Below, one piece after another: positions 2,116-61,465 of a stretch of DNA of 64,000 nucleotides (position 1 is its first letter; the number at the start of each line of letters is the position of its first letter). The DNA is taken from the NCBI GenBank assembly GCA_024734495.1, contig JALMQS010000612.1, positions 1,255,979-1,319,978 of the forward strand, in the 5' to 3' direction. The notes beneath the pieces are model-generated. The model made no database searches, had not been told where the DNA came from, and saw nothing but the letters and a program-made list of their open reading frames with translations. Made by a program: the position numbers and the translations under genes. This DNA comes from Forficula auricularia (lineage: Eukaryota > Arthropoda > Insecta > Dermaptera > Forficulidae).

Positions 2116-5100
2116 CTTAACTTTCATTATATCGTCGGCTTAGAGAGTAAACCTGGTAACTCACAAAAAGGCAATTTTACAAGGCAGAGAAAAAACAAAC
2201 AAAATTTAATATTGTTGTTATGGAAAAAACTATTTTTCACATTTTTTTCTACAACCTACGATCGTAATTTTAAGTAGAAGTTTTACTTGGACGATGGTGC
2301 ATCTCTTTTTCTTTCGAACGGTATTAATATCTCATATATGACAAAAAATGAAGTTAGCAGCTTTACACTCTAAGCCAACGATATATCAGATCAATGTATA
2401 TAAATATAACAAAATTTTTTATACTGATACTTAATGAGATAATGAATATAAAAACTTGCCATAGCAGAGCAGTTTTGCCCCTCCCGGCCCAAAAGTCTGG
2501 CTACGCCAGTGAGGACCATAGGTGGACGTATATATATGAGTTTTCAAATTTCAGCACACTATTTTTCAATTTAAAAGGGCCCCTAGAAATTCCCCCTCCC
2601 CCCTCCTTTCACCAGAGCTGCTCTTGATTATAAAAGCTATCATATATCTGCGAATAGCATTCAAAAATCGAAAATCACTCTGATTTATTGCAATTAAAGG
2701 CGTCAGGCTATCTGGGCCTAGGGACTACTGGACCATAGGAAATCTTTCTGCTTCACCTTTTGGAATTTCCCGCATTTTACTTTCAGTTGATAACAATTCT
2801 AGTTCTAGCAAACAACAAACGTATGGTTTTTCCGGGACTTGCCTGAATCGCCGGACATTCATAATTATTTCCAATAATCAGAACAAATAATTCTAATCTA
2901 AAAATACAGACTACTAGTAGCACAATGTTTCAAACTATATAGTAACTATATTGTCCCTATATATCATCATCATCGAGTATACAAGACTCAATATTGTCTA
3001 ATTTCTATGCGAGAAAATAAAGATTTCCCTGATATTCACTTCGATTCGAATACCCTAAAAATGTGTGACAGCCTATCCATGCTTGGCGTCTCTGTCGCAT
3101 CTGACCTGTCTTGGAATGAACACATCTCCTCTGTGGCGAAATCTGCAGCAAGGAAGATTGGCTTCTTATTCAGGTCCAAGCGATTTTACAAACCCCCACA
3201 ACTTCTCACCATCTACAAGGCCCAGATCCGCCCCTGTCTCGAATACGGCTCTCATCTGTGGAGAGGGGCCTCAAAATACTCTCTTGCTACCCTGGATGCA
3301 ATTCAGAAACGAGCCGTCAGGCTAATTGACGATTCTACCCTCACTGACTCCCTCGACTCGCTGGCTCATCGAAGAGATGTCTCTGCCCTTTCCCTTTTCT
3401 ATAGATACTATCACGGCAGGTGCTCTGATGAGATAAAATCAATAATTCCCCCCAAAGCATGCTTTGCACGCAGCACACGTTTTGCCGACTCCCAACACTC
3501 TCTCGCGGTCAAACTAGAAAAGTGCCGGACCACTTCATTCGCCAATACATATATCCCCATGACTTCAAGGAACTGGAACTCTCTCCCAGCCTCTATCTTT
3601 CCCAGCACCTATAATCTTCAAACCTTCAAAACCGGAGTGCATAGACACCTAAGTCTACACCCTCTCACTTAATCAACTTTCTCTTCTCTTCGGTAATGCA
3701 AGGGTCTTTCGAGATCCATAGGGGCTGCATCTTTACTGGTGCACCCCTTCTTGCATTCGATTGCATTAAAAAAAAAAAAAAAAAAAAAATACAGTCCTAA
3801 GACTGGTTTGATGCAACAATCCGTCTCCACTCGACTCTGTCCCCCGCCAGCTGTTTGACCTCTCTAAATGTCTGGCATCCCATATCCCCAATTATTTGGT
3901 TGAAATATTCTAATCTGGGTCTTCCTCTTCCCCTTTTCTTTCCCACCTCCCCCTCCAAGATATCCCTAAGCAGTCCCCCATGTCACAGTGTGTGCCCCAT
4001 CATCTGACCTCTTCTCTTCTTCAGACTCTTCCACAAGGTTCTTTTTTCTCCGATTCTTCCAAGAACTTCTTCATTTGTAATTTTATCCATCCATTTGATA
4101 TTCATCATTCTTCTGTAGCACCACATTTCGAAAGCCTCTAATCTCTTTCTCTCCGCTTTTCTAATTGTCCAGGTTTCACACCGGTACATGGCTATGCTCC
4201 ATACATATGTCTTCAATAGCAACTTCCTGTTTTCTAAGCTGATTGAGGAGGAGCATAGTAGTTTTTGTTTTGAATTAAACCCCATTTTTGCTTGGGCAAT
4301 TCTTGATTTAATTTCGTTTTCGCTCCTCCCATCCCATGTTATTTTACTTCCTAGGTAGAGGAATTCCTTAACTCCTTCTAGGTTTTCTTGGTTAATTTTG
4401 ATGCATTCCTGTCTCGTTTGTTCTTTTTTTGTACATACTAGGACCTTGGTTTTATTCTTGTTTATTTTCATTTTGATTTCTTCTATTAGGATTTGGTTAA
4501 TTCCATTCAGGGCGTCCTCTAATTCTTTTTTATTGCTTCCTAGAAGGGCAATGTCATCGGCAAATCTTAACATAGCGATCTTTTGACCTTGGATTTCGAT
4601 ACTTGTATCAATTTTGTCTTTGAATTCTTTAATCTCTTTAATAGATTTTGAGAATCTTTATAGGCACTATATAGTTTGAAACATTGTGCTACTAGGGTAC
4701 TTATAAATATTTTCTTGCCTTAATTTGTATATTTTGCCAGTATACAATTTTCTTTCAATTTGTTCATACAAAATAACAAATAATTTTGTATTTTAACTCT
4801 ATTTTTATAAAATGTTCAAGGTCGAGGCTGAATTAAACTATGCAATGGACATGTACGATCTGAATCGTCGTGTGAATATACAAGAAGGCATCGTTGGTTG
4901 GTGGGCTACTGGAAATGAAGTTACCAGCCATTCTTCAGTTATTCATGAATATTATGCACGTGAATGCAATAATCCAATTCATTTAACTCTCGATACAACT
5001 CTTCAAACAGGAACCATGGGTATCCGAGCTTATCTTAAGTATGAAAATTTATAAATTTACAAAAATATTATTAATAATTAATAGGGATTGTGGTGTTGGT

Positions 5101-8100
5101 GCAAGGTGAAACATCTTTAATAAAGATAAAAGTAAATAAATATTATATGCAATATTCATTTACTATGAGTTAAGATTTCTAGGTCACTTGTTTCACATTA
5201 AAATTAAAAAAATAAAAGATGTAAATTTTTTCAATATATATATATATATTTTTATATTCCTAGCCTATAGATAATAACCAATGTACTTTTAATTTTCCTT
5301 TATTTATCCATAGGTCAATAGAGCCTACCCTACCCAAATTTTCACTGAACAATAGTCTATCTCAAAAACTTGAAGGAGACAATAAAGGAGTGTATCTTCT
5401 GCTGGAATTATAAATTTTATTTATTTATAACGAGACTATAGTTTCGAGGGCTTTGCTCCTCTTCATCAGTCTATCATAAATTAATTCCTGTGAATCCATT
5501 GTAATAGACTGATGAAGAGGGCAAAGCCCTCGAAACTATAGTCTCGTTATAAATAAATAAAATTTATAATTCCAGCAGAAGACACACTCTTTTATTGTCT
5601 CCTTCAATATATAAAAATTCTGCTACTCTCGGCAAAAACTTTCAATTTTTATCTCAAAAACCTATATATACCTTTGCATTCGAATTTTGTATTAGTTATA
5701 ATTCTGTACTTTCCTGAAGTTGAGCTTACAGCTCGAAATATATATATTGAAATTTTTTTTATATTTTAATGTGAAACAAGTGACCTAGAAATCTTAACTC
5801 ATAGTAAATGAATATTGCATATAATATTTATTTACTTTTATCTTTATTAAAATATTATTACTAGGGCTTCCATCAATCTCATTCGAGAGAATGTCATGAT
5901 TTTAGATAACAATCCTCATCTAAGAGTCAGAATTACTTGATGTTTTAAGGAACAATTTCTAATGAACGTATTAACAATGTCGATTATTTTATAGACTGCT
6001 TTGAACAAATTATGTCTCTTATAAAATTACCCTTGATAAATTTGCCTTGAATTTAAATTCCTAATATTGAATTCACTCCATTTTTTTTTAATTTGCATAT
6101 TCTCTTTAAAAATGTTTGAAACGTGAATAAAAAAACATTTTCAATCACGATTTTTTTATGAATATATGTCTCAGATAACTATGAAAGGCAAAGTCGTAGA
6201 AAGTTCGTTCTTGAACCAAAATGTTTGTATTTTTCACTTCGGAGAAGTGATTAGATTTTGAACTTTCTAACTTTCACTTCAAAAATGCAGCAAACAATTT
6301 TTTAGAATGCTTTATTGATATTTTAAGGTGATGTCGTAATATAGGCATAAATAAAAAATTTATATTTAAGATTTTTAATTATTACTTTGGAGACTTTGAG
6401 CATACCGAAGTTTTAATTTTTTGGGGGACTCAGAAAAAGAAAAAAAAAACAAGGATAAAGGATATGTTACAAAATGATATATACTTAGTATAATTTAAAT
6501 TTATATAAATAAACTTGAAGAAATAAAATAATAAATTAAGATTTGTTTCTTTTAACGATTCACACGCAAAACAGAAAATTATTTCTACGAAAAGAATTAA
6601 CAGAAATGTTTCAAATTTGTATTAAAATGTAACAACAAAGAAAAATTGAAATACTATAATATGTGTGTGTGTGTGAATATAGTTTTAAATATTATTTTAT
6701 ATTTCTGGTTCCCAACCTAGGAGTATTTTTTCCCCCATGGGCGTTAAATAGCTACTTGAAGGGGGTAATCAGGGTAATTAATATATGTTGACGGTAATGG
6801 ATCCAATTTTTCTGCTATGCCCCGGTGCGGGGCGAGGATGGATATTTTTTCAACAAGCGGTAAAGACACATGGCTTGCTTGGTCACAAGGGTAATGATGA
6901 AACTGAAAAGGTTAGGAACCACAGTTTTAGAAAAAATATATAATAGTACATTTAATAAAATGCTGATAGTGAAAAAATAAATAAGATTTGAACTCTAAAT
7001 ATGATAGATAAAATTTAAAAAGTCCTTTAAAAAATTATAAAAATCAAAATATATCAAATATTTATTAGAAATAAATAAAAAATACTTCTTTCTTTGGATT
7101 CGTTTAGGAGGCATTTTTAATAAATTCATTTACATACATATAAAATCGGAAATATGATAGTTGGAGCTATCAAATAGAAATGAGCTATTACAGAATAATC
7201 AACTTTAACAGAAAAAAAAGAAAAAAATCTCTGTATTTAATTGAAATTGTGGGATGCGTTCAAAAAATAGTTCCCATATGGGAACAGTGGTCCCAAATGG
7301 GTTAAGCTACTGCATATTACTTCCTATAAACACAACTTATTTTTCAACTGAAAACATACATAAGATCATCTATGAAACAAAATTAAAATTAGAACAATTA
7401 TACATACATTATTCCAATGGGTTATTTCATTTTCCATAAAACTAAATTTTCTACAAGTGGTAACAGCGTCAAAACTTCAAAGAATTAAAGGTTGCTCTGT
7501 ATCAGACTGGGATTTGTGCGACGCGATGCAGCGTAACCATAAACAAAACCCCGAGTGATTCAGAGCATTGTGCGGACCGCGCGCTCTGTACTGTACAGGG
7601 GTTTGGATATACACGTCCCGGAGCCTATAACCTACCCATTCTTGAACAAGTTTGAACAAATTCCTCCAATTTTCTGCTGAATTACTCTTGGCGGATTGTT
7701 ACCTCTATGTCTTAGGCTTATTTGACTTAATTTACCCGCACAGCATTCGTGCGAATTGATCATGCGAACTTTGAAATTTCTCAGTAAATAGTTCAAGTGA
7801 GCATGCTCAAATACCTCCGAGTGCATGAAGTCAAATACTCCATGCTTGCCACTTCAGTCACTTTTACATTTTGAGAAACTAGTTACAGTTATAAGTTACT
7901 TAAAATAGATGCGTGGCACTCGGGGACTGCCGCGGTAAAGCTATTGCATAGCATTTTTTATCAACTTATGCAATTATAATATTTATGCAATATTTTTTTT
8001 TCTTTGATATTAATTCAAGTTACACTTTTTGAGCGTGGTGACCGATAAGAAAACAATGTTTTTTCTTTTTCTTTTATTGAATAAATGAGAAGTTAATATT

Positions 8101-11100
8101 GTTTAAAATATTTTTATTATCTTACAATACATGTAGGTTATTCAGGAATTTTTATCATTGTAACTATAGGTTTATGGTAACTGAAATAAGAAACATAAGT
8201 TTGAGACTTGATATCCTCTAAATATCTGGAAAATACCGCGTCAATGGTGGTCCCATATTTTGTTGTGGATTCTTGTGGATCATTATTCATTTTCAAATTC
8301 AATTTTTCCGAAAGAAAAGTTGTCAACCGCTCTGAATTTTTATCAGTGAAGTTGATGTTGAAATCGCCAGCCAAGATAAGTGGAAATTTATTACCATTTG
8401 TACCAAGTATTTTCGACCCTTCTTCAGTGTACTCCAGTAAAGTGCGATGAATAAAATGCTCTACCTCGTCCAATTTTGGATTCGGAGAAATGTAAATTGC
8501 TACCATGACTATGTGTAGGCCATTTCTAAGTTTGCATAAGCACGCACAAATATCTCCAACAAATGAGCGCCTAACATTAACATCGCTAACGTGTGCAATA
8601 TTTATTTCAATATTCGGAGTCATAATATTAGTAACATTATTATTATTTTGGTAAATAGCTACCCCACCTTTTGGAACAGTATCTCGTTTGAATTGAACAA
8701 TACAATTGAAATGAGGTATTTCAATCGGATTATCACGCGTCATGCAAGTTTCGGTAAGAAGTAACACATTTGTTTGTCTCGTAACTGAATCTTGTAAATC
8801 GTATTTGTGACTATTTAGACTTTGGCAATTGAAAGTCATTATTGAAATGCCATTTCTATTACTAATGAAATCTAAGACACTTTGAGCTATCGTCTGAACA
8901 CTATTTAAAGACAGTCTTTTGAATTCTTGCAACAAAGATGCAGTCGATGCAGCTTGCCTTCGATTATGATAAAACTTGAATGTAGAATTATCGTTTTTTG
9001 TCGTGATATACAATTTTTCAATATTAGTCACCCCAGAGAGCGCAACATAAACGAGTTCCTGAGAATGTGCTTTACTATACTCATATACTATTTCGTCAAA
9101 AGTTCCACCTTGCGACTTATGTATAGTTAGAGCAAGAGCTGAAGTTAATGGAAAATGTTTGCGTTTGGCTATACATTTTCTATCCGATGTTATTGAAATA
9201 TTTGCTGTTCGTAATTCAATGGCAACAGCGAGATTGCCGACTCTATTTTGCACTGCTAGAGTGGCTGCTTTTTGCCTTTTTTTCTACCCACTTTATCTGA
9301 ACCACAAAATTCCAGCCAAACTCTAATCAATGTGTTACTTTCATCAAATTCTAGATGTATCAATTTCCCAACAGCACCATTGCATAAACCATCAGTAACG
9401 TCGATGTTGGTTGTAATAACATAATGCTTTCCAACAACAAAAGTAATGTGATAAGGCAGTCCTCCAGTGTCAATAACAGATTTTTTAGAGAGGAACATCT
9501 CCCCCGCCCGAGCCGCCTCTCCGCCAAGAGTCGGACGGTTCCGCTGGCCGCTTGGAGGGGACCCTGGGCTGTGCCGGTCGGAGTGGGGGGTGTTAGGTTT
9601 ATTTTCGTTACGGAATTTCTTGATTCGGTCGCCGCGCTCAAAGCCCGCGATAAAAGCTATGCAATAGCTTAAAAAATTTCGATTTATATTGTACAAACTA
9701 TGAACAGAAAATGTTCCCTAAATGACAATTTTTTCATGGAATTTAGAAGCATGAGAATTTCTTAAGCCAGTTTCTAAAATCTGTCGATGCCACCAGGGAC
9801 ACTGTGTAAATATCACATCGAAGATGTCGAGGCAATTCTAACTCATTTTTTTAAATAAATTTTTTCAAACATGAATTCATCCTCTTTAGTGATGTGTCTA
9901 TGCGAGAGATAATCTCAGTTTAATAGTGATTTTAAATTGGACACTTTTTCATACTGTCCTAACAGCTACCGTTAGGGCATAGGATTAAATCCTTAAGTCC
10001 ACTTCGCCCCATTTCATCTTTCAAGTTTGTCGCAATTATAATAAAGTTAGCAATAGTGCGAAATCTGCAGCAAGGAAGATTGGCTTCTTATTCAGGTCCA
10101 AGCGATTTTACAAACCCCCACAACTTCTCACCATCTACAAGGCCCAAATCCGCCCCTATCTCGAATACTGCTCTCATCTGTGGAGAGGAGCCTCAAAATA
10201 TTCTCTTGCTACCCTTGATGCAATTCAGAAACGAGCCGTCAGGCTAATTGACGATTCTACCCTCACCGACTCCCTCGACTCCGTTGGCTCATCGAAGAGA
10301 TGTCTCTGCCGTTTCCCTTCTCTATAGATACTATCACGGCAGGTGCTCTGATGAGATAAAGTCAATAATTCCCCCCAAAGCATACTTTGCACGCAGCACA
10401 CGTTTTGCCGACTCCCAACACTCTTTTGCGGTCAAATTGGAAAAGTGCCGGACCACTTCATTCGCGAATACATATATCCCCATGACTTCAAGGAACTGGA
10501 ACTCTCTCCCAGCCTCTATCTTTCCCAGCACCTATGATCTTCAAACTCTTCAAAACCAGGGTGCATAGACACCTACGTCTACACCCTCTCACTTAATCAA
10601 CTTTCCCTTCTCTTCGGTAATGCAAGGGTCTTTCGAGATCCATAGGGGCTACACCTTTACTGGTCCACCCCTTCTTGCATTCGATTGCATTAAAAAAAAA
10701 AAAAAAAAAGTTGAAAATAAAAAAAGCGTTTAACACTATATATGGTACATTAATTGGAATTTTATAATCATGCTCATGCAAAAACTAATTTATTTATTAA
10801 AAAAAAAACTATATAAAAAAATATAGGAAAATTATAAATAATGCATAAATTAAGTGCTACTAAAATGGTTATTAATTATATTTTTATTTCTTTTTAATGT
10901 GCCAATTGGAGTTCCAGGAAAAAAATCTGGATCCATGTTTACACCCGTGCCTGTTGAAATCACTTGTTATGAGCCTGAAGTTGTCGGAGGTAAGATGTTT
11001 ATGAAGTTTTTATTAATTAAAATTAAAGACATGTTTATATTTAATAATAACTTAAAAATCTAACATTTCTAAATTAGTTAAGTCATCAAATAATTGATGG

Positions 11101-13356
11101 AATGTGACTGAGTTGCATTTACCAAATCGCTAAGTCTTTGCAAAAAAATTACCCTCAAAACAAAAAGATCGAAAGTTGGCTGGGGTCTTGCATCATGGAG
11201 AGCGTGCTTTTTTTCTCTCTATTTAAGACACTCAATAGAAATTTCGTATCCTCCTCGTTTCCACCTCTCTTGCAGCCATGAGCCTCCCTGGAAAAGCTGA
11301 ATCATTCGCCTATTTTTCGCTACTAATTTCACTTTACGTGACAAAGGACTTAACCCACCATTTTATTCCCCTCAAACTAAACTCATGACTAAAATTATTT
11401 GCAGACCCCATGTAATAAAAAAGAACTATCAATAAATTGAAATCTGATTCGACCGCCCCGATAACATCCCTCAAATTATTATCAAAAAATGCGGCCCCGA
11501 AGTTTCACGTATCTAAGGTATTTCAACTTTCCTATGATTTGGGCATATTCCCCACTAGAAATTAACCAGAGTTACACTTATACCCAAATAAGGCGACCCA
11601 TTTCAAATTATTAGTAATCACTTCCGTTTTCTCTAAAATAATGAAAATGGTAATTAACCAGCATGTCCTCCGTCACTTAGAAAGCAATAAAATAATTTAT
11701 TCACGATAGGCAATATGAATTTAAACAGTACCGCTCCACATGCGACATTCCTAAGTTCTTCTTACCTGGAACAAAACTCTTGAGACCCTGGCAGTAGCCC
11801 TGCATATTTCAAAGGCCTTTGACCAAGTTTGGCACAAACATCTTTTGCCAAACTGCCGGCCTTTGGCTTCACACAAACATTTTGCAAATGGTTGAAAAGT
11901 TTTATCGCAAATCGTAGTATTAAAGTTATGTTTGATATAACATCATCCACATCTTTTTCTTCAAATGCCAGAATTCCCCAAGGCTAGCTCCTCCACTTCT
12001 TAATATATTTATAAACTACCTAATTAACCAAACTTCCAATCTTACTCCTCTTACGCCGACGATACCACTCTTCACTACGCCCCCTCACTCCCGAATAATC
12101 GAACCAATGGTGCTAATAATTTACAACCTGAATACTTGAGAAAATTGGGCTCTCAAAATTTAATTAGCTTTAAGGCAAACAAGACTCAATGTTATCTAAT
12201 TTATAGGCGCGAAAACAAACATTTCCCCGATATCTTCTTTGGTTTAAAAACCCTTAAGATTAGCCTTAAAAAAACCCTTAGATTGTGATAACTTGTCTTG
12301 CCCAGTCTCAGTCGCATCCGACCTATCTTGGAATGAACACATTTCCTCTATAGCGAAATATGCAGCAAAGGAAATTGGGTTTTTTATTCAGGTCTAGACG
12401 ATTTTTAACGCCCTTGCAACTTTTCACCCTTTATAAGGCCCAAATCCGCCCCTGTCTCGAATGCGGTTCGCATCTGTGGAGAGGGTCCTCCAACCATTCT
12501 ATTCCCACCCTGGATGCAATTCAAAAACGCCCTATCAGATTAATATAAGATCCTATCCTTACCGCCTTCCTCGACTTGCTAGCCCATCGAAGAAGAGTTT
12601 CCGCGCTTTCTCTATTTTATATATACTATCACGGCATGCGCTCTGGTTAGTTGAAGTCAGTAGTTTTCCCCAAAGCCTGCTTTCACGTAACACTCTATTT
12701 TCCGACTCCAACTTTCGCCGTTAAATTGGAAAGTGTCGGGCCTCTTCGTTCGCTAATACTTTTGTGCCCATGGCTTCAAGGAACTGGACTCTCTCCCGGC
12801 CTCCGCTTTCCCGACATTATAACCTTCATGATCCGGGTGCACAGACAACATTACTCCATCCTTTCTCTTGATCAATTTCCCCTTCTCTTGGGCAATGCAA
12901 AGGTCTTTCGAGATACATAAAGGCTGCATCCTCTTGGTGCGCCCTTTCTTCCATTCAATCTCATTAAAAAAAAATAATAATAATAATAAATAACAACCTG
13001 CTTTATTTGAAAAATTGAAAAGTTTTTATTTTGCCGAGAGTAGCAGAGTTGTTGATTCATAGAGAGAAACAAAGATGTTGTCCTCTGCTTAATGGTCAAC
13101 CTCTTTGTTTCTCTCAATGAACCTGCTTTATATTTACATTTAATTACATATTATACTCATCAATTTCTGCCTATACTTGAGAAAATAGAGGGTCTCCCTT
13201 TAAGCCTTCCCAATGAATTACAATGTGTGTTGAGAATGCGCTCAATACGACTTTGATTGGAAATGCTGTAAACATGTCAAGAGCACTTGATGTAGACTGT
13301 GAGAGTATCACAAAGAGAAACAAAGAGGTTGTCCTCTCCTTAATGAAAATAAACAT

Positions 13357-13387
<31 letters not shown>

Positions 13388-15154
13388 ACTTGGTGATCCT
13401 TTGGAAAATGGCGCTTTGATCTAGTAAAGATCCACTAAAAATAAAACGATGTAGCCATTCACTTGATAATAACTCCAATCACTATAATTTGTAATTTAAA
13501 TACTTCACTATAAATAGAAACACGACTTTCTATTTAAAAATTAAAAATATATTGTATTTGTGCAAAATTCGATGGTTAGTTTTTTATTGATTTAATGGCA
13601 AGATCGTTCATCAATATTCATGAAATTTTTAATATAGAGGCTTAGACTAATTTCGGAGATCTTGACATGCATTATTATTAAATTTTTAATAGCACTATAT
13701 ATAATATATTATTATATATTTATATGGTATAATGGTATAATATTATATAAAATAACAAATTTCGGCTAGAACTTAAAGTTTTGTTGCAATAATTAATTAT
13801 TCTAAATATGTATACTGTATATAATATATGGTATATATGTGATTTATTTTGTATAATAGTATATAACAGGGGTGGCCACAATGTGGCTCGCGAGCCCCAT
13901 GCGGCTCTTCAGTCAATTCTCGTGCGGCTCTTGAACCCTCTTTGAATAATACTGATTTTAAAATGTATAATAATTAAATTAAAAAATTCAAACGAAATGG
14001 CGTTTCGGCCATAGTGTTTTGGAAGAAGGTCCCAGAAGAAAAAATACCCACTAACAAAAGATTGTGCTAAGAGACTAATCTCAATATTTGGAACTACTTA
14101 TCTGTGTAAATAACTGTACTCAACGCTTCTTAAGTTCATTAAATCAAAATATCGATCCGAACTGACTGATTATGCACATTTAAGTGAACTCGTGTGAACT
14201 TCGCTTAGCAATTATCAGCCAGATTTCAATCAACTAACAAGCAACATGAACACTCGTAAAAGCACTTCTCAAAAGGAAAATGTTATTTCTTTTTTTTATT
14301 GTAATTGAACACTAATGTTATAAGTAAGTAGACCAAAAAATAAATGTTACTTCATTTATATTTTATAAAAAAAAATTGTGCCTTAATTAATTAATCTCCA
14401 AACAATGTGGCTCGCTTTGAAACCGTTTTATAAATTTCCGGCTCCCAAAGTTAAGGTTAAAAGCCACCCCTGGTATATAAAGAAAAAAATAAAGAAAATA
14501 AAACCTATTTTCAAAAAGAACCCCCACTTTCATTTCAAAACACCATTTGGTTATCATTATCAATACTTTTTTTTTATTTATTTATTTCTATAGTTCAACT
14601 GTGCCAGAAAACGATGTCTTCTTCTAAAAAATCAGTAGAGCCATTGCTGGATCTTGCTCAAGTAGCTGAAGCTTCTGAACGCCTAACTGGACTCTTGGAG
14701 GGTGTATTGAGTTATGTAGATGACGTTATTGCTGGAAAAATAACACCAGATAATGCTGTAGGACGTGCTCTTCTTGATATGGTTAACTCAGTTCCGCAAA
14801 TGACCTCCGAAGAATTTGAGCAAATGTTTAATTCCAATATCAAGGTAAATTTATTACATTTTTACACTTAAGATTATTTTTCTTTTCTTTATTATTTCTC
14901 GTTAATTTAACTCCCCAAGCCGTTGCCATTATATATTAGGGAATGGTTTTACATGTTAATTTTATATATCTTGAAGAGATTTCACGTCTATTGTGATCTT
15001 CGCCAATAGTATATAATATATTTGAAAATAACTCTAACGCCCTTAAATTTTTTTTCAGGATCTCTTGATGGTTATTACTCTCTCCCAGTTGACCAAAACC
15101 CAACTACAACTTAATGAAAAATTAACTTTACTTACAACAACTACTCAAGTTTAA
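1365..15154 (+). CDS. eIF3f: Eukaryotic translation initiation factor 3 subunit F (six exons)
   Basis: Exons: 1365-1473, 1573-1643, 4821-5038, about 10898-10989, 14594-14844, 15059-15154; 837 nt, 278 codons plus stop, close to the insect family length. Non-catalytic MPN-domain subunit of the eIF3 complex that binds the 40S ribosome. Residues 1-36 read [20 protein letters not shown]...; GWWATG sits at residues 86-91, where active JAMM proteases have a metal-binding HxH, so a peptidase role is not supported by this motif. The GVPGKKSG / MFTPVPVEI block and the helical C-terminus ([10 protein letters not shown]...[15 protein letters not shown]) are typical. Splice phases fit throughout and GT donors are present. 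The 3' splice site of intron 3 lacks AG (see findings). Introns 2, 3 and 4 (3.2, 5.9, 3.6 kb) are filled with transposons; introns 1 and 5 are 99 and 214 bp. Confidence 0.93.
1747..2112 (-). mobile_element. Helitron family A, 5'-incomplete copy in eIF3f intron 2
   Basis: Read on the minus strand it ends with a GC hairpin (GGCCGCCGAAGGCGGGCC), then TTGCAGCTAG followed by host T, the classical Helitron 3' terminus. The body shares the segment with CAGACAGACAGACAGG and 'CGTAAAAACGGCTGAAGGG-like' sequence with copies at 18.2 and 22.3 kb. The 5' side dissolves into a (TA)n run at about 2063-2112, so the TC start is lost. Confidence 0.7.
2131..2383 (+). mobile_element. MITE family X, intact copy
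   Basis: About 250 bp with imperfect terminal inverted repeats: TCGTCGGCTTAGAG at the left and CTCTAAGCCAACGA at the right. Related copies are at 41814-42622 (carrying two later insertions) and 59792-60041 (opposite orientation). No coding capacity. Superfamily not recognised. Confidence 0.65.
2977..3789 (+). mobile_element. 5'-truncated CR1/Jockey-type LINE (copy L1), RT C-terminus
   Basis: An open frame at 3007-3672 encodes the C-terminal part of a non-LTR reverse transcriptase protein: '[15 protein letters not shown]', '[17 protein letters not shown]', '[12 protein letters not shown]', '[15 protein letters not shown]'. The palm catalytic motifs lie upstream and are missing, so it is truncated. 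The 3' UTR contains the characteristic GGTGCACCCCTTCTTGC and ends ATTGCATT plus a poly(A) of about 20 at 3769-3789. Four more copies of this family lie at 10053, 11100, 26985 (minus) and 63150. It is the best preserved and probably among the youngest here. Confidence 0.85.
3797..4640 (-). pseudogene. RTE-type LINE reverse transcriptase C-terminus, one stop
   Basis: Minus-strand frame reads from '...[20 protein letters not shown]' (FADD is the RT catalytic motif) through '[13 protein letters not shown]', '[16 protein letters not shown]', '[10 protein letters not shown]' to '[10 protein letters not shown]'. A TGA at 3983-3985 then interrupts, but the same frame continues '[20 protein letters not shown]' and '[15 protein letters not shown]' to a stop at 3797-3799. 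The single in-frame stop sits where the family usually has Arg (CGA to TGA). Truncated 5'. It lies directly against the poly(A) of the LINE at 2977-3789, in opposite orientation. Confidence 0.85.
5425..5479 (-). ncRNA. Hammerhead ribozyme motif (left arm of P1 copy A)
   Basis: On the minus strand: CTGATGA (5469-5463), stem II weaker than in the right arm (GAGG/CCTC with a larger loop), GAAAC (5445-5441), TATA, GTC (5436-5434). Core bases intact. Confidence 0.65.
5499..5552 (+). ncRNA. Hammerhead ribozyme motif (right arm of P1 copy A)
   Basis: CTGATGA at 5509-5515; stem II GAGGGC/GCCCTC (5517-5522 with 5526-5531, loop AAA); GAAAC at 5532-5536; then TATA and cleavage triplet GTC at 5541-5543. 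ACUAUAGU around stem III is self-complementary. Stem I forms between 5499-5508 and 5544-5552: 2 bp, a small internal loop, then 6 bp with one G-U. All conserved core bases are present. Predicted cleavage follows C5543. Confidence 0.8.
5662..7449. other. AT-rich eIF3f intron 3 segment without gene
   Basis: Nothing coding recognised. Holds a short (GT)n at about 6661-6675 and the hAT-like MITE listed separately at 6703-6923. The segments at 5110-5280 and 5750-5860 are inverted relatives (shared TAAGATTTCTAGGTCACTTG and its complement), so copy A of P1 lies inside an older palindrome. Confidence 0.5.
6703..6923. mobile_element. Short hAT-like MITE
   Basis: Starts CTGGTTCCCAACCT and ends AGGTTAGGAACCAC, imperfect inverted termini of the 'gtggttcccaacct' type common in hAT MITEs. 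About 220 bp, non-coding. A related left part is at 15474-15560 and a related right part at 17820-17882. Confidence 0.5.
7450..7894. other. Unassigned GC-richer segment
   Basis: Less AT-rich than its surroundings (e.g. GCGGACCGCGCGCTC near 7575). No open frame of interest, no inverted ends found. It abuts the 3' end of the Helentron remnant and could be part of it or an older element. Confidence 0.3.
7895..9680 (-). mobile_element. Helentron (Helitron-2 type), internally deleted copy
   Basis: Minus-strand element with related inverted end regions. The palindrome GCTATTGCATAGC (7940-7952) pairs with AGCTATGCAATAGCT (9655-9669). Farther in, GAGCGTGGTGACCGA (8031-8045) matches the complement of TCGGTCGCCGCGCTC (9625-9639). 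Such subterminal inverted repeats with a terminal palindrome fit Helentrons. The 5' end (GC-rich, 9487-9669) is joined directly to the last third of the RepHel-endonuclease gene, so the Rep and most helicase motifs are deleted. Outer limits are approximate. Confidence 0.75.
8138..9486 (-). pseudogene. Helentron helicase C-terminus fused to an endonuclease domain
   Basis: Upstream part (9486-9256) carries '[20 protein letters not shown]' of Pif1-type helicase. A run of A near 9275 shifts the frame; the frame from 9253 continues with '[20 protein letters not shown]' and '[18 protein letters not shown]', helicase motifs V-VI. Then follows an endonuclease/exonuclease/phosphatase domain: '[18 protein letters not shown]', 'LLLTET', 'GGVAIY', 'VAIYISPN', '[10 protein letters not shown]', 'TTIDAVF', 'SYHKPIV'. 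The usual SDH triad is SYH here. Helicase-endonuclease fusion is the known Helentron signature. Stop at about 8138. Non-functional: truncated and frameshifted. Confidence 0.85.
10053..10709 (+). mobile_element. CR1/Jockey-type LINE copy L2, 5'-truncated
   Basis: Nearly identical to the 3' 650 bp of the copy at 2977-3789. Starts inside 'KSAARKIG', has an extra base near 10280 that breaks the frame, and ends with the same 3' UTR and an ~18-base poly(A) at 10692-10709. Lies in eIF3f intron 3 just upstream of exon 4. Confidence 0.85.
11100..12978 (+). mobile_element. CR1/Jockey-type LINE copy L3, old and longer
   Basis: Degraded by many stops and shifts but retains more of the reverse transcriptase. 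Visible blocks: '[20 protein letters not shown]', '[17 protein letters not shown]', '[11 protein letters not shown]', 'SYADDTT' (palm motif, near 12050), then the C-terminal block shared with L1. 3' end ATCTCATT plus A-rich AATAAT tail. More diverged than L1 and L2, hence older. Confidence 0.8.
13007..13119. mobile_element. Hammerhead element family P2, short collapsed copy
   Basis: Flanked by AACCTGCTTTAT at 12995-13006 and 13120-13131 (12-bp target duplication), 113 bp. Begins with the tail TTTTGCCGAGAGTAGCAG (13029-13046), then an arm (GAGAAACAAAGATGTTGTCC) and its reverse complement. The ribozyme-bearing centre is deleted. Confidence 0.7.
13305..13388. repeat. P2 outer-arm fragment and (TA)n
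   Basis: CACAAAGAGAAACAAAGAGG near 13309 matches the outer arm of the 54877-55754 element. It is followed by AATAAACATACACACATA and a (TA) run at about 13362-13387. Confidence 0.55.
13867..14472. mobile_element. Non-autonomous hAT element in eIF3f intron 4
   Basis: 606 bp bounded by CAGGGGTGGCCAC and a complementary GCCACCCCTG end, with a perfect 8-bp duplication GTATATAA at 13859-13866 and 14473-14480. The 8-bp duplication and CAGGG-type termini assign it to hAT. Non-coding. A second, 5'-truncated copy (58704-59649) is split by a mariner-type element. Confidence 0.88.
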
Positions 15155-39149: not shown

Positions 39150-39265
39150 CTTAGGAACTGATGATGGCATTATTTAATTAAAGCCGAAACGTTTTCTATA
39201 ATTGGGAGTTTTTTATTCAGCAGAGGCTACCCATTGGCTGAATCCCTCTCCATTACTTAATTATA
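39150..39265 (+). mobile_element. Hammerhead element family P4, 3' end
   Basis: Ribozyme-like core followed by AATTGGGAGTTTTTTATTCA, GCAGAGGCTACCCATTGGCT and CTCCATTACTTAATTA. The last ~90 bp recur in reverse complement at 42410-42502, where they are a discrete insertion with a 14-bp duplication; this fixes the 3' terminus. Confidence 0.65.
39153..39200 (+). ncRNA. Hammerhead ribozyme motif (P4)
   Basis: CTGATGA at 39158-39164; stem II GGC/GCC with a long AT loop (39166-39185); GAAAC at 39186-39190; then GU and U39193 as the possible cleavage base, with self-complementary ACGU. Stem I AAGG (39154-39157) pairs with TTCT (39194-39197), including one G-U. Confidence 0.6.
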
Positions 39266-42336: not shown

Positions 42337-42409
42337 TATTGTTGTTTTGGAAATAAACTATTTTTCACATTTTTTTTCATACAACTTACGATCGAAATTT
42401 TAAGTAGTA

Positions 42410-42502
42410 TAATTAAGTAATGGAGAGGGATTCAGCCAATGGGTAGCCTCTGCTGAATAAAAAACTCCCAATTTTGGAAAACGTTTCTGCTTTAATTAAA
42501 TC
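42410..42502 (-). mobile_element. Hammerhead element P4, 5'-truncated copy
   Basis: 93 bp, complementary to 39175-39265, with AATTTTAAGTAGTA at 42396-42409 and 42503-42516. On the minus strand it begins inside stem II (TTTAATTAAAGC) and runs to the P4 3' end. GAAAC remains; CTGATGA is lost. Confidence 0.78.
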
Positions 42503-44300: not shown

Positions 44301-44344
44301 AATTGATATTAAATATAATAGAGGGGCCAGGTGTATGGTAAAGT

Positions 44345-44378
44345 TGAAAAGTTTTTGTTTTGCCGAGAGTAGCAGATA
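44345..44378 (+). repeat. Solitary P1/P2 tail
   Basis: GTTGAAAAGTTTTTGTTTTG then CCGAGAGTAGCAG: the asymmetric tail of P1/P2 elements with no arms attached. Confidence 0.6.
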
Positions 44379-44689: not shown

Positions 44690-45206
44690 TGATACTTTGA
44701 AATTGTTCAATATGTGGGCAGCACAATTAACGCCTATCAATTTATGTTTACTTGATTGTTCCATTTTAAATAAAACATTATTTTTTCTCTGGCAACCATA
44801 CCAAAATTGCTGTTAAATTGAACGTTTTTGCCGAGAGTAGCAGAATTTTATATATTGAAGGAGACAATAAAAGGGTGTGTCTTCTGCTGGAATTATAAAT
44901 TTTATTTATTTATAACTCGTTATAAATAAATAAAATTTATAATTCCAGCATAAGACACACTCTTTTATTGTCTCCTTCAAAATTGCTGTTGGTATTATCA
45001 GCACACAAAGCGAATACTTTATTAGTAATTTCAAATTTTGACAGTGATTCCTTGATGCAATTTGTTAATATATCTGAAGTTTCTCCAGAAAGATTATTTA
45101 TATTCAAAATTTTTACTTTGACACCGCAATTGGGTAAAAAATATCTGTCCAGAATTGTGCTCAATTTACTATTACCATGATTCGAATAATCCGAATAAAT
45201 AGTTAT
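44690..45206 (-). pseudogene. hAT transposase catalytic-region fragment, split by an insertion
   Basis: Minus strand 45206-44991: 'ITIYSDYSNHGNSKLSTILD', 'CGVKVKILNINNLSGETSDI', 'KVFALCADNTNSNF'. After the P1 insertion (44815-44978 plus duplication) it resumes 44814-44690: 'NFGMVARE', a one-base shift, then 'NNVLFKMEQSSKHKLIG' and 'VNCAAHILNNF'. The D..N.SNHG, CADNTN and C.AH.LNN blocks are those of the hAT RNase H-like fold (ZBED/SCAND3-like subgroup). Ends are truncated. Confidence 0.8.
44815..44978. mobile_element. Palindromic hammerhead element P1, copy B (centre deleted)
   Basis: 164 bp with AAAATTGCTGTT at 44803-44814 and 44979-44990. Tail GCCGAGAGTAGCAG at 44830-44843, then the two arms. 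Deletion of the centre removed both ribozyme cores. Inserted inside the hAT transposase codons for NF. Confidence 0.85.
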
Positions 45207-54867: not shown

Positions 54868-54989
54868 ACTAATATTAATTCACAAAGAGAAATAAAGAGG
54901 TTGTCCTCTGCTTGATGCAAATAAACATATACTCACATATAAGTATATAGAAATTATATATCTGTATATATATATATATATATTATTTA

Positions 54990-55045
54990 TTTGTTTGAGA
55001 CTATAGTTTCGAAGACTTGGTCTTCATCATCAGTCTTTTTTAATT
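54990..55045 (-). ncRNA. Hammerhead ribozyme motif (P2 left arm)
   Basis: Minus strand: CTGATGA (55033-55027), stem II GAAGAC/GTCTTC with loop CAA, GAAAC (55010-55006), TATA, GTC (55001-54999). Core intact; stem I has 2 bp plus possible distal A-U pairing. Confidence 0.7.
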
Positions 55046-55284
55046 ATAAATATTATTTTTCATGGGGTAAATACTGTATGGATATTGAAAATTTCCGATC
55101 TTTACTTAGCTGGGAGCCAGTTAAAAATTAAAATCAACTTCCAGGTCACATTCATATTTAAACATTTGTATCCCTTTTTGTAACAATTCAATTTAATTTT
55201 AATTGGCTCCCAGCTAAGTAAAGATCGAAAAAAATTTCAATATCCATATGGTATTGACACCATGAAAAATAATATTATATTTAT

Positions 55285-55345
55285 AATTAAAAAAAGACTG
55301 ATGATGAAGACCAAGTCTTCGAAACTATAGTCTCAAACAAATAAA
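55285..55345 (+). ncRNA. Hammerhead ribozyme motif (P2 right arm)
   Basis: CTGATGA 55298-55304, stem II GAAGAC/GTCTTC, GAAAC 55321-55325, TATA, GTC 55330-55332. Core intact. Confidence 0.72.
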
Positions 55346-55524
55346 TAATATATACACAGATATATAATTTCGATATATATATGTGTGTATGTTTATTTGC
55401 ATCAAGCAGAGGACAACCTCTTTGTTTTAAATTGAAAGTTTTTGCCGAGAGTAGCAGAATTTTTATATATTGAAGGAGACAATAAAAGAGTGTGTCTTCT
55501 GATGGAATTATAAATTTTATTTAT

Positions 55525-55578
55525 TTATAACGAGACTATAGTTTCGAGGGCTTTGCCCCTTCATCAGTCTATTACAAT
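55525..55578 (-). ncRNA. Hammerhead ribozyme motif (P1 copy C, left arm)
   Basis: CTGATGA (55567-55561), GAAAC (55545-55541), GTC (55536-55534) on the minus strand. One base of stem II is deleted (GGGGC/GCCC pairing remains). Confidence 0.6.
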
Positions 55579-55591
55579 TCCCGCGAATACA

Positions 55592-55645
55592 TTGTAATAG
55601 ACTGATGAAGAGGGCAAAGCCCTCGAAGCTATAGTCTCGTTATAA
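55592..55645 (+). ncRNA. Hammerhead-like motif, mutated core (P1 copy C, right arm)
   Basis: CTGATGA 55602-55608 and perfect stem II GAGGGC/GCCCTC, but GAAAC is GAAGC (G at 55628), so cleavage is expected to fail. Confidence 0.6.
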
Positions 55646-55763
55646 ATAAATAAAATTTATAATTCCAGCAGAAGACACACTCTTTTATTGTCTCCTTCAA
55701 CTTCCTTGTTTCTCTTTGTGAATCAACAACTCTCGGGAAAACAAAAACTTTTCAACTAATATT

Positions 55764-60280: not shown

Positions 60281-61187
60281 CTTAACCAGGATTCACTTTT
60301 GGAAAAAAATAATTTGATAGGCTTTTTAATTAAACTTATTATTAATAGATGGTTGAATAAAAATGAATCATGTGGATGAATCAAAATAAAACAAGTTGTC
60401 GATTAAATAACAAACAAACAAATTACCGAACAAAGCTCTGATAGCACCATAACTTATAATAATAATTTCACTCTCAAAAATGAAGAAAATATTTATTTTT
60501 TTGAAATTTTCTTGCGTTATCTTGAGAAATACATAAAAAAATAAACAAATGATTTTTTTCAATTTCAATTTATCGAATTAATCAATAGTTTTAACAAAAA
60601 TTACTTATTAAAATTAGAAATTGAATTTATTCCAAGTTAATAATTACATTTTAATACTTGGTTTTATCAAAAAATTATTAATACGACAAATTTAACTCGA
60701 GAGCGTATCGAGTCATGAATTTTTTCACTTTTTCTTCCAATTTTTAAATCAGTTCGCTCGCCGGGTAGACCTAGTAATTTTAGGTTAAATTCACTCGACA
60801 ATTGTCACATTTTTTTGCCTTCTTTGTCTTTAGAAATGCCTGAAACTTTGAGAAAAATAATTTTCAAGAATAGTTTTTTCCATTTGATTGTCTAGCTGCT
60901 TGTGTATATTCCCGATTACGCAAGAACGGAAGATCGTAGAAAGTTCATTAGGGTGTTAAAATGTTCGTATTTTCTAACCAAAATATTGTGTTAAGTAGTC
61001 TTCTAGCTCAAATAGTTGGATGATAAATAAATAGTTAAATCTTCGAAATTTGAGGAAAGAGTATAATGAGCCTTGAAAAAATTTTCATGCTTACCTACCA
61101 CTAAAATCATAGTCAGATTTTTTCAGATTTTTAAATTTGAATTTAATTTTATTCATTTTCTTAGAATGACGGACTGGTAAGTGAAAT
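60281..61187. other. AT-rich stretch without gene
   Basis: Nothing recognised. Confidence 0.4.
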
Positions 61188-61465
61188 AAGTAGGTTATAA
61201 TGAAAGACAGTCCATAAATTATTTAAATTTTATTCAATTTCCGACGTTTCTGAGACTTTTTCTCTCCTTATTCAGGAGTATTAGAATAGTTATCGATTAG
61301 TGAGTATAACTCGGTTCCCATTTTGTCTCTCCTTTCAGTGATAGCAACAATATTATAATACAATACCCTGAAGAAGGAGAGAAAAAGTCTCCGAAACGTC
61401 GTAAAATTGAATAAAATTTAAATAATTTATGGACGGCCTTTCATTATAACCTACTTATTAAATTT
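61188..61465. mobile_element. Palindromic hammerhead element P3
   Basis: AATAAGTAGGTTATAATGAA near 61188 and complement TTCATTATAACCTACTTATT near 61442 bound an inverted repeat (CCATAAATTATTTAAATTTT). Each arm has a ribozyme-like core. Centre ~90 bp unique. Target duplication not clear. Confidence 0.68.
61361..61409 (+). ncRNA. Hammerhead ribozyme motif (P3 right arm)
   Basis: CTGAAGA 61368-61374 (position 7 is variable in the core), stem II GGAGA/TCTCC (61376-61380 with 61388-61392), GAAAC 61393-61397, GTC 61398-61400. Stem III ACGU is self-complementary with no loop. Distal stem I CAAT (61361-61364) pairs with ATTG (61406-61409). The left arm (about 61236-61276, minus) has CTGAATA and is probably dead. 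Confidence 0.6.

Follow-up and report, generated by a model that had tools for sequence, protein, structure and literature searches.

The window (the whole 64,000-nucleotide stretch of Forficula auricularia DNA that was analysed) contains a gene for eIF3f, an intron of which houses the insertion considered here, designated copy A. This intronic setting, already put forward in the original prediction, is borne out by frames overlapping the exons, by a MitMem_reg domain detected in 14461-14871, and by protein matches, the best four of the 1145 matches to the joined exon translation being the eIF3f proteins of a termite, a mantid, a stick insect, and a cockroach (78-81%), which points to a probably polyneopteran host. 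Copy A lies in the intron placed between reading frames 4797-5051 and 10854-11060, where it fell into a foldback-like element (5116-5851), further copies of which were not found within the window.

1359-1655, 4797-5051, 10854-11060, 14461-14868, and 15047-15151, plus strand: frames overlapping eIF3f exons (exon borders are our own reading)
5116-5212, unstranded: left arm of the foldback/MITE-like element, 97 nt, 98% complementary to its partner arm
5755-5851, unstranded: right arm of the foldback/MITE-like element, partner of 5116-5212

The foldback element perhaps carries TTAA at its ends. Farther along, 8138-9717 (minus strand) holds a remnant that we read as Helitron-like, in which 8138-9283 joins a UvrD_C_2 helicase-type end (below the Pfam cut-off) to an endonuclease/exonuclease/phosphatase domain (Pfam).

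The insertion and its relatives

Copy A (5370-5649) consists of a 238-bp head-to-head palindrome (5370-5607), whose arms at 5370-5456 and 5521-5607 are 98% complementary, and a 42-nt tail on one side (5608-5649). The palindrome originally described as a 280-bp element is thus real but spans 5370-5607 only, 5608-5649 being a one-sided tail; the 12-bp target duplication described with it stands, with TATCTCAAAAAC exact on both sides and starting on the plus strand of the window solely at 5358 and 5650. The inner end of the tail-less left arm lies approximately 40 nt upstream of the predicted cut site.

5358-5369, unstranded: left target-site duplication TATCTCAAAAAC, an exact 12-mer
5370-5473, minus strand: tail-less arm (read as a second, incomplete cDNA), starting at the inner start point TTGAAGG
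5474-5649, plus strand: tailed arm (read as the first cDNA), with the recurrent 5' end TCATAAATTAATTCC..., the putative hammerhead, the inner start point, and the tail
5608-5649, plus strand: one-sided tail, 42 nt, containing CTCTCGGCAAAAACTTTCAA, on one arm only in copy A and common to copies B and C
5650-5661, unstranded: right target-site duplication TATCTCAAAAAC, an exact 12-mer

Related insertions occur elsewhere in the window, some close to copy A and others belonging to distinct families.

13007-13119, minus strand: element E, D-like, with both arms shortened, a one-sided tail, and the 12-bp duplication ATAAAGCAGGTT
44815-44978, minus strand: copy C, with the duplication AACAGCAATTTT; both arms stop at the predicted cleavage site
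54875-55427, plus strand: element D, a second related family with a longer palindrome and putative hammerheads at 54997-55035 (minus) and 55296-55334 (plus)
55429-55700, minus strand: copy B, a tailed palindrome inserted into element D and matching copy A at 93.5% over 279 nt
61185-61459, plus strand: element G, a third type of palindrome, with 96% arms and a CTGAAGA-A-...-GAAACGTC core in the right arm, decayed in the left

Element D has the stem II GAAGAC/GTCTTC in its putative hammerheads, a tail that resumes beyond copy B at about 55701-55750, and a duplication of about 9 bp (ACTAATATT). The flank test found only an 8-mer around copy B, which was scored as having no clear duplication, and by eye AAACAAGGAAG and AAACAAAGAGG stand at its edges; the flanks of element G gave no convincing duplication, only a 7-mer. 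More families with the same type of core were encountered in the flanks of genomic copies, with the stem II sequences GAAGGC/GCCTTC (locus L012) and GGAGG/CCTCC (locus L028).

Several smaller observations belong with these elements. A lone tail of the D/E type with no recognisable arms (44340-44376, minus strand) may be an extreme 5' truncation or a remnant. Positions 1-110 of the window resemble, by eye, one arm of the palindromic family at L028:2150-2480, whose candidate hammerhead, CTGAAGA-A-GGAGG/CCTCC-GAAACGTC, has a five-pair stem I. A 94-bp inverted repeat pair (39172-39265 and 42408-42501, 97%) lies beside a hammerhead-like core at 39158, referred to below as H39.

Candidate hammerhead cores in the arms

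Both arms of copy A hold CTGATGA, a stem II, GAAAC, TATA, and GTC, as had been predicted, and each arm has what is, by its sequence, a minimal type I hammerhead core.

5507-5545, plus strand: right-arm hammerhead core, CTGATGA-A-GAGGGC/GCCCTC-GAAAC-TATA-GTC, predicted cut after C5543
5432-5471, minus strand: left-arm hammerhead core with a bulged stem II, predicted cut after C5433

A chance origin of these cores was rejected: the window has six cores with a paired stem II, whereas 100 dinucleotide shuffles averaged 0.25 and never gave more than 2. All six share one unpaired extra nucleotide (A or U) between A9 and stem II. The so-called stem III comprises only A-U and C-G pairs closing a UAUA loop; on direct reading, ACUAUAGU / ACTATAGT are self-complementary, and the self-complementarity of ACTATAGT means that a dimer could extend this minimal stem.

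The search with Infernal and Rfam, which had been suggested as a check on the prediction, returned no hammerhead: there were 0 matches at the gathering score in the whole window and, at E<=10 in 5000-6000, 17 sub-threshold matches that included no hammerhead family. These sub-threshold matches were rejected, being mostly miRNA-hairpin models fitting the palindrome, together with RAGATH-17 (E 2.3), tp2, and snoRNA models. A covariance model built solely from the arms of copies A and B (R1) finds both arms of family D, which was excluded from its building, at E 3.4e-13, and responds weakly to element G and H39 (E 0.44 and 0.68, respectively).

Covariation was counted in eight aligned cores from three families (H39 having been removed beforehand owing to misalignment) and in 65 distinct rows taken from the window together with 40 genomic loci. 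Among the eight cores, 92.7% of stem II cells are paired and 8 are doubly changed, values each reached by 0 of 500 shuffles, against 51.2% and 3 for the best slid stem II; two further measures fell at shuffle level in this alignment, with 292 of 500 shuffles having at least the 3 observed pairs changed on both sides and 496 having at least the 4 observed further pair types. In the 65 rows, all five measures exceed the shuffles: 93.5% of cells are paired (0 of 500 shuffles as high), 26 cells are doubly changed (0 of 500; 12 in the best slid version), 14 pair types occur (reached by 10 of 500), and the score was reached by 0 of 500. Six pairs are changed on both sides in this set (reached by 3 of 500), a number that the structure slid by -2 also attains, but with 12 doubly changed cells. 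The 65-row alignment was fitted to the structure, and kinship among rows inflates counts of this kind.

The transcript of copy A with its duplications is predicted to form one hairpin at -177 kcal/mol, against a shuffle mean of -48.65; the minus strand of copy A and copy B are predicted at -184.9 and -179.9, respectively, and the isolated right arm (5490-5607) at -23.5. In the hairpin predicted for the transcript of either strand, the two cores pair with each other; ribozyme action, if any, would then take place in the source RNA rather than in the inserted copy. The proposal that facing ribozymes constitute an RNA-processing system at this locus accordingly loses its footing, the predicted hairpin burying both cores against each other.

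Junctions of 42 insertions

This kind of insertion is already known, and the junctions of its copies record how the element was copied. A search of the genome (1.06 Gb, 845 contigs) with copy A returned 2219 first-look candidates, which are unconfirmed; 40 copies were scored, copy A included, and the other 39 are 90-95% identical to it. The expectation that other genomic copies would share the ends of copy A is thereby amply realised. Copies B and C are absent from the 40 and were added to give a junction sample of 42 insertions. As the 40 were ranked by likeness to a full-length palindromic copy, the sample selects inverted pairs and long arms, and shorter arms are under-represented; the opposed arms found in all 40 scored copies (80 rows) are likewise those of a set selected by a query that is itself palindromic. 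L013 and L020 are probably one insertion that was duplicated, because the duplication, the centre, and the flanking frames are common to both, and at most 41 of the 42 would then be independent.

Flank matches scoring at least 10 were present in 28 of the 42 insertions compared with 2 of 574 mismatched flank pairs, and 19 of the 42 have matches 12 or 13 long; a clear target duplication by this test was absent in 14 of the 42. The tail is on one arm in 39 insertions, on both in L008 and L030, and on neither in L040.

In 40 of the 42, the end of the arm read as the first cDNA lies 70 to 64 nt upstream of the first post-cut base; the exceptions are copies B (46 nt upstream) and C (+3). For the 32 such arms that reach the reference start, the preceding base is only T or A (21 and 11, respectively), the second base out is A in 20, and the third is mixed, with the agreement of first bases arising partly from the construction of the alignment. 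Lying some 35 nt upstream of the core, this recurrent end has the appearance of an RNA 5' end, with TCATAAATT as the presumed RNA start.

In 40 of the 42, the other arm starts between -3 and +12 relative to the inner start point; it carries the tail in 2. Its far end falls at many positions, between 61 and 23 nt upstream of the cut, with copy C at -1; these ends were re-called after a first pass had over-extended through the self-complementary AATTAATT, and the re-called ends may fall short where the arms have diverged (in L024, the centre shows both arms to be long). Nine of the 42 second arms stop at one and the same base, 23 nt before the cut within the stem II region; a strong stop, bias in the sample, or an artefact of end calling may account for this.

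In this sample, selected for long arms, 41 of the 42 insertions have both arms extending past the cut site, and this agrees with parts of PMC11167929, in which no reads at the cut site are described and cleavage is not needed in vitro. Copy C stops at the site: relative to the predicted cut, one arm ends at +1 or -1 and its partner at +3 or +4 (one base is ambiguous). It is a single case drawn from the window rather than from the ranked search, and its position may be due to chance.

Class of the element and mode of integration

Several published insertions resemble copy A. Sections of PMC3846280 describe Penelope elements of Adineta with an inverted pseudo-LTR (pLTR), an optional 31-bp tail on one inverted pLTR, and 8-10-bp duplications in several copies, and sections of PMC11167929 describe a 30-40-bp tail delimited by two internal start sites, the cleavage and extension of both target strands, and a hammerhead near the ORF start. 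On these descriptions, Pen2a_Av of Adineta vaga (PMC3846280) and PAc of Anolis (PMC11167929) have in common with the present copies a head-to-head pLTR, an optional tail of 30-40 bp, a short duplication, a hammerhead motif near the start points, and 5' truncation. The copies differ from Penelope/Poseidon pseudo-LTRs in containing no coding part, and their duplications cluster at 12-13 bp (the 19 of 42 above) rather than at the 8-10 bp given for Adineta in those sections of PMC3846280. In PAc, according to the part of PMC11167929 drawn upon here, the ORF starts at stem II, with C3 and G8 lying ahead of the start codon. A frame from the ATG inside the core of copy A meets TAG within the motif on direct reading, so that no ORF runs through the core, unlike in PAc.

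Copy A is probably a pseudo-LTR insertion, solo and head-to-head, of a Penelope-like retrotransposon or one of its non-autonomous derivatives. Confidence in this assignment is good and is held one step lower than it might have been because L040 has no tail and two covariation measures lie at shuffle level. The original alternatives, a Penelope-like terminal repeat or an animal retrozyme, are hence narrowed to the former, which is favoured by the anatomy: the arms stand head to head, the one-sided tail measures about 40 bp and the duplications about 12 bp, the hammerhead is minimal, and copies are numerous. That a minimal hammerhead resides in the pseudo-LTR is suggested by the core sequence and the covariation of stem II. 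An autonomous element was sought in the flanks of the copies, where a lead at L012 was obtained and no Penelope protein could be tied to the family. The frame at L012:543-851 resembles, by eye, the end of a Penelope endonuclease, although Pfam gave 0 families at E<=1 and a protein search no homologue for it; ahead of it stands the end region in inverted form (1-201 versus 1074-1270, 95%), and CTGAAGA-T-GGCC...GGCC-GAAACGTC follows it at 1266. The L012 element is of a different family and counts as a lead rather than proof.

The minimal type I hammerheads of Penelope-like elements, reportedly characterised by Cervera and de la Pena in 2014 and by Lunse in 2017, share with the present motifs the core, a very short stem III that could be extended in a dimer, and the association with such elements; the additional A or U that the six window cores have between A9 and stem II may set them apart from those types. 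A viroid hammerhead with an extra nucleotide in its core is likewise said to have been reported by De la Pena and Flores in 2001, and the likeness lies in the additional residue, with no sequence relation claimed. Dimer action of the Penelope-like motifs and weak activity of the extra-nucleotide viroid hammerhead are mentioned in passages of PMC7761336 and PMC11014351, respectively. PAc may have the same extra core residue, judging from the placement of its ORF rather than from its sequence.

Most of the junction data are explained if two opposed cDNAs, one complete and the other usually shortened, began at different points and were then joined end to end. An endonuclease would make staggered cuts about 12 bp apart, and reverse transcription would be primed by both target 3' ends within RNA of one kind, by one of them at the outer start point, which leaves the tail, and by the other at the inner start point. 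The first cDNA would run through the uncleaved hammerhead to the RNA 5' end, the second would stop early, often inside the hammerhead, and the two cDNA ends would then be joined, with short overlaps in part of the copies. The hammerhead would belong to the source RNA, where cleavage may take place in a dimer or with protein assistance.

A Penelope-like insertion might instead become palindromic through fold-back self-priming of a single strand, as is proposed for the Adineta palindromes in sections of PMC3846280. This is unlikely: a folded-back strand should copy the tail, which the second arm carries in 2 of the 42 insertions while starting near the inner start point in 40, and the published enzyme extends both target strands (PMC11167929, in the part cited). 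Two primings are therefore preferred, as an inference. Much less probable still is a DNA foldback or MITE moved by a transposase and retaining hammerhead-like sequence by descent; a palindrome with a short target duplication would suit such an element, and the host element at 5116-5851 is itself a foldback, but this reading was rejected because the tail is at only one end in 39 of the 42, the inner junction varies while the outer starts recur, and stem II covaries as RNA (with two of five measures at shuffle level in the eight-core set). An animal non-LTR retrozyme spread via circular RNA, to which the small size, type I hammerhead, and AT-rich sequence would be suited, is highly improbable and was also rejected, given that the arms are inverted (in a set selected for inverted pairs) whereas retrozymes are described as short tandem repeats in parts of PMC7229834, that stem III is minimal whereas most invertebrate type I motifs of the retrozyme kind form a stable helix III according to parts of PMC7761336, and that the end of one arm lies not at the cut but, in most of the 42, 35 nt upstream of the core.

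With two primings of a Penelope-like RNA as the preferred course, a fuller reading is offered tentatively: the palindromes may be a fossil record of Penelope integration, in which two independently primed cDNAs were joined end to end, the first having passed through the uncleaved hammerhead to the RNA 5' end and the second having stalled in the folded ribozyme, with a minority class, represented by copy C, arising from hammerhead-cut RNA.

Penelope-like hammerheads are numerous in animal genomes and their role is unknown, as stated in sections of PMC7761336. Counts of junctions at hammerhead cut sites were not found in the Penelope and hammerhead literature surveyed, which comprises mostly open-access sources, in part as excerpts, and says little about print. 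In a genome rich in short head-to-head insertions, the role of the hammerhead becomes approachable by counting cDNA stops; if the reading offered here is true, the contribution of the ribozyme in such elements would be measurable by counting genomic junctions.
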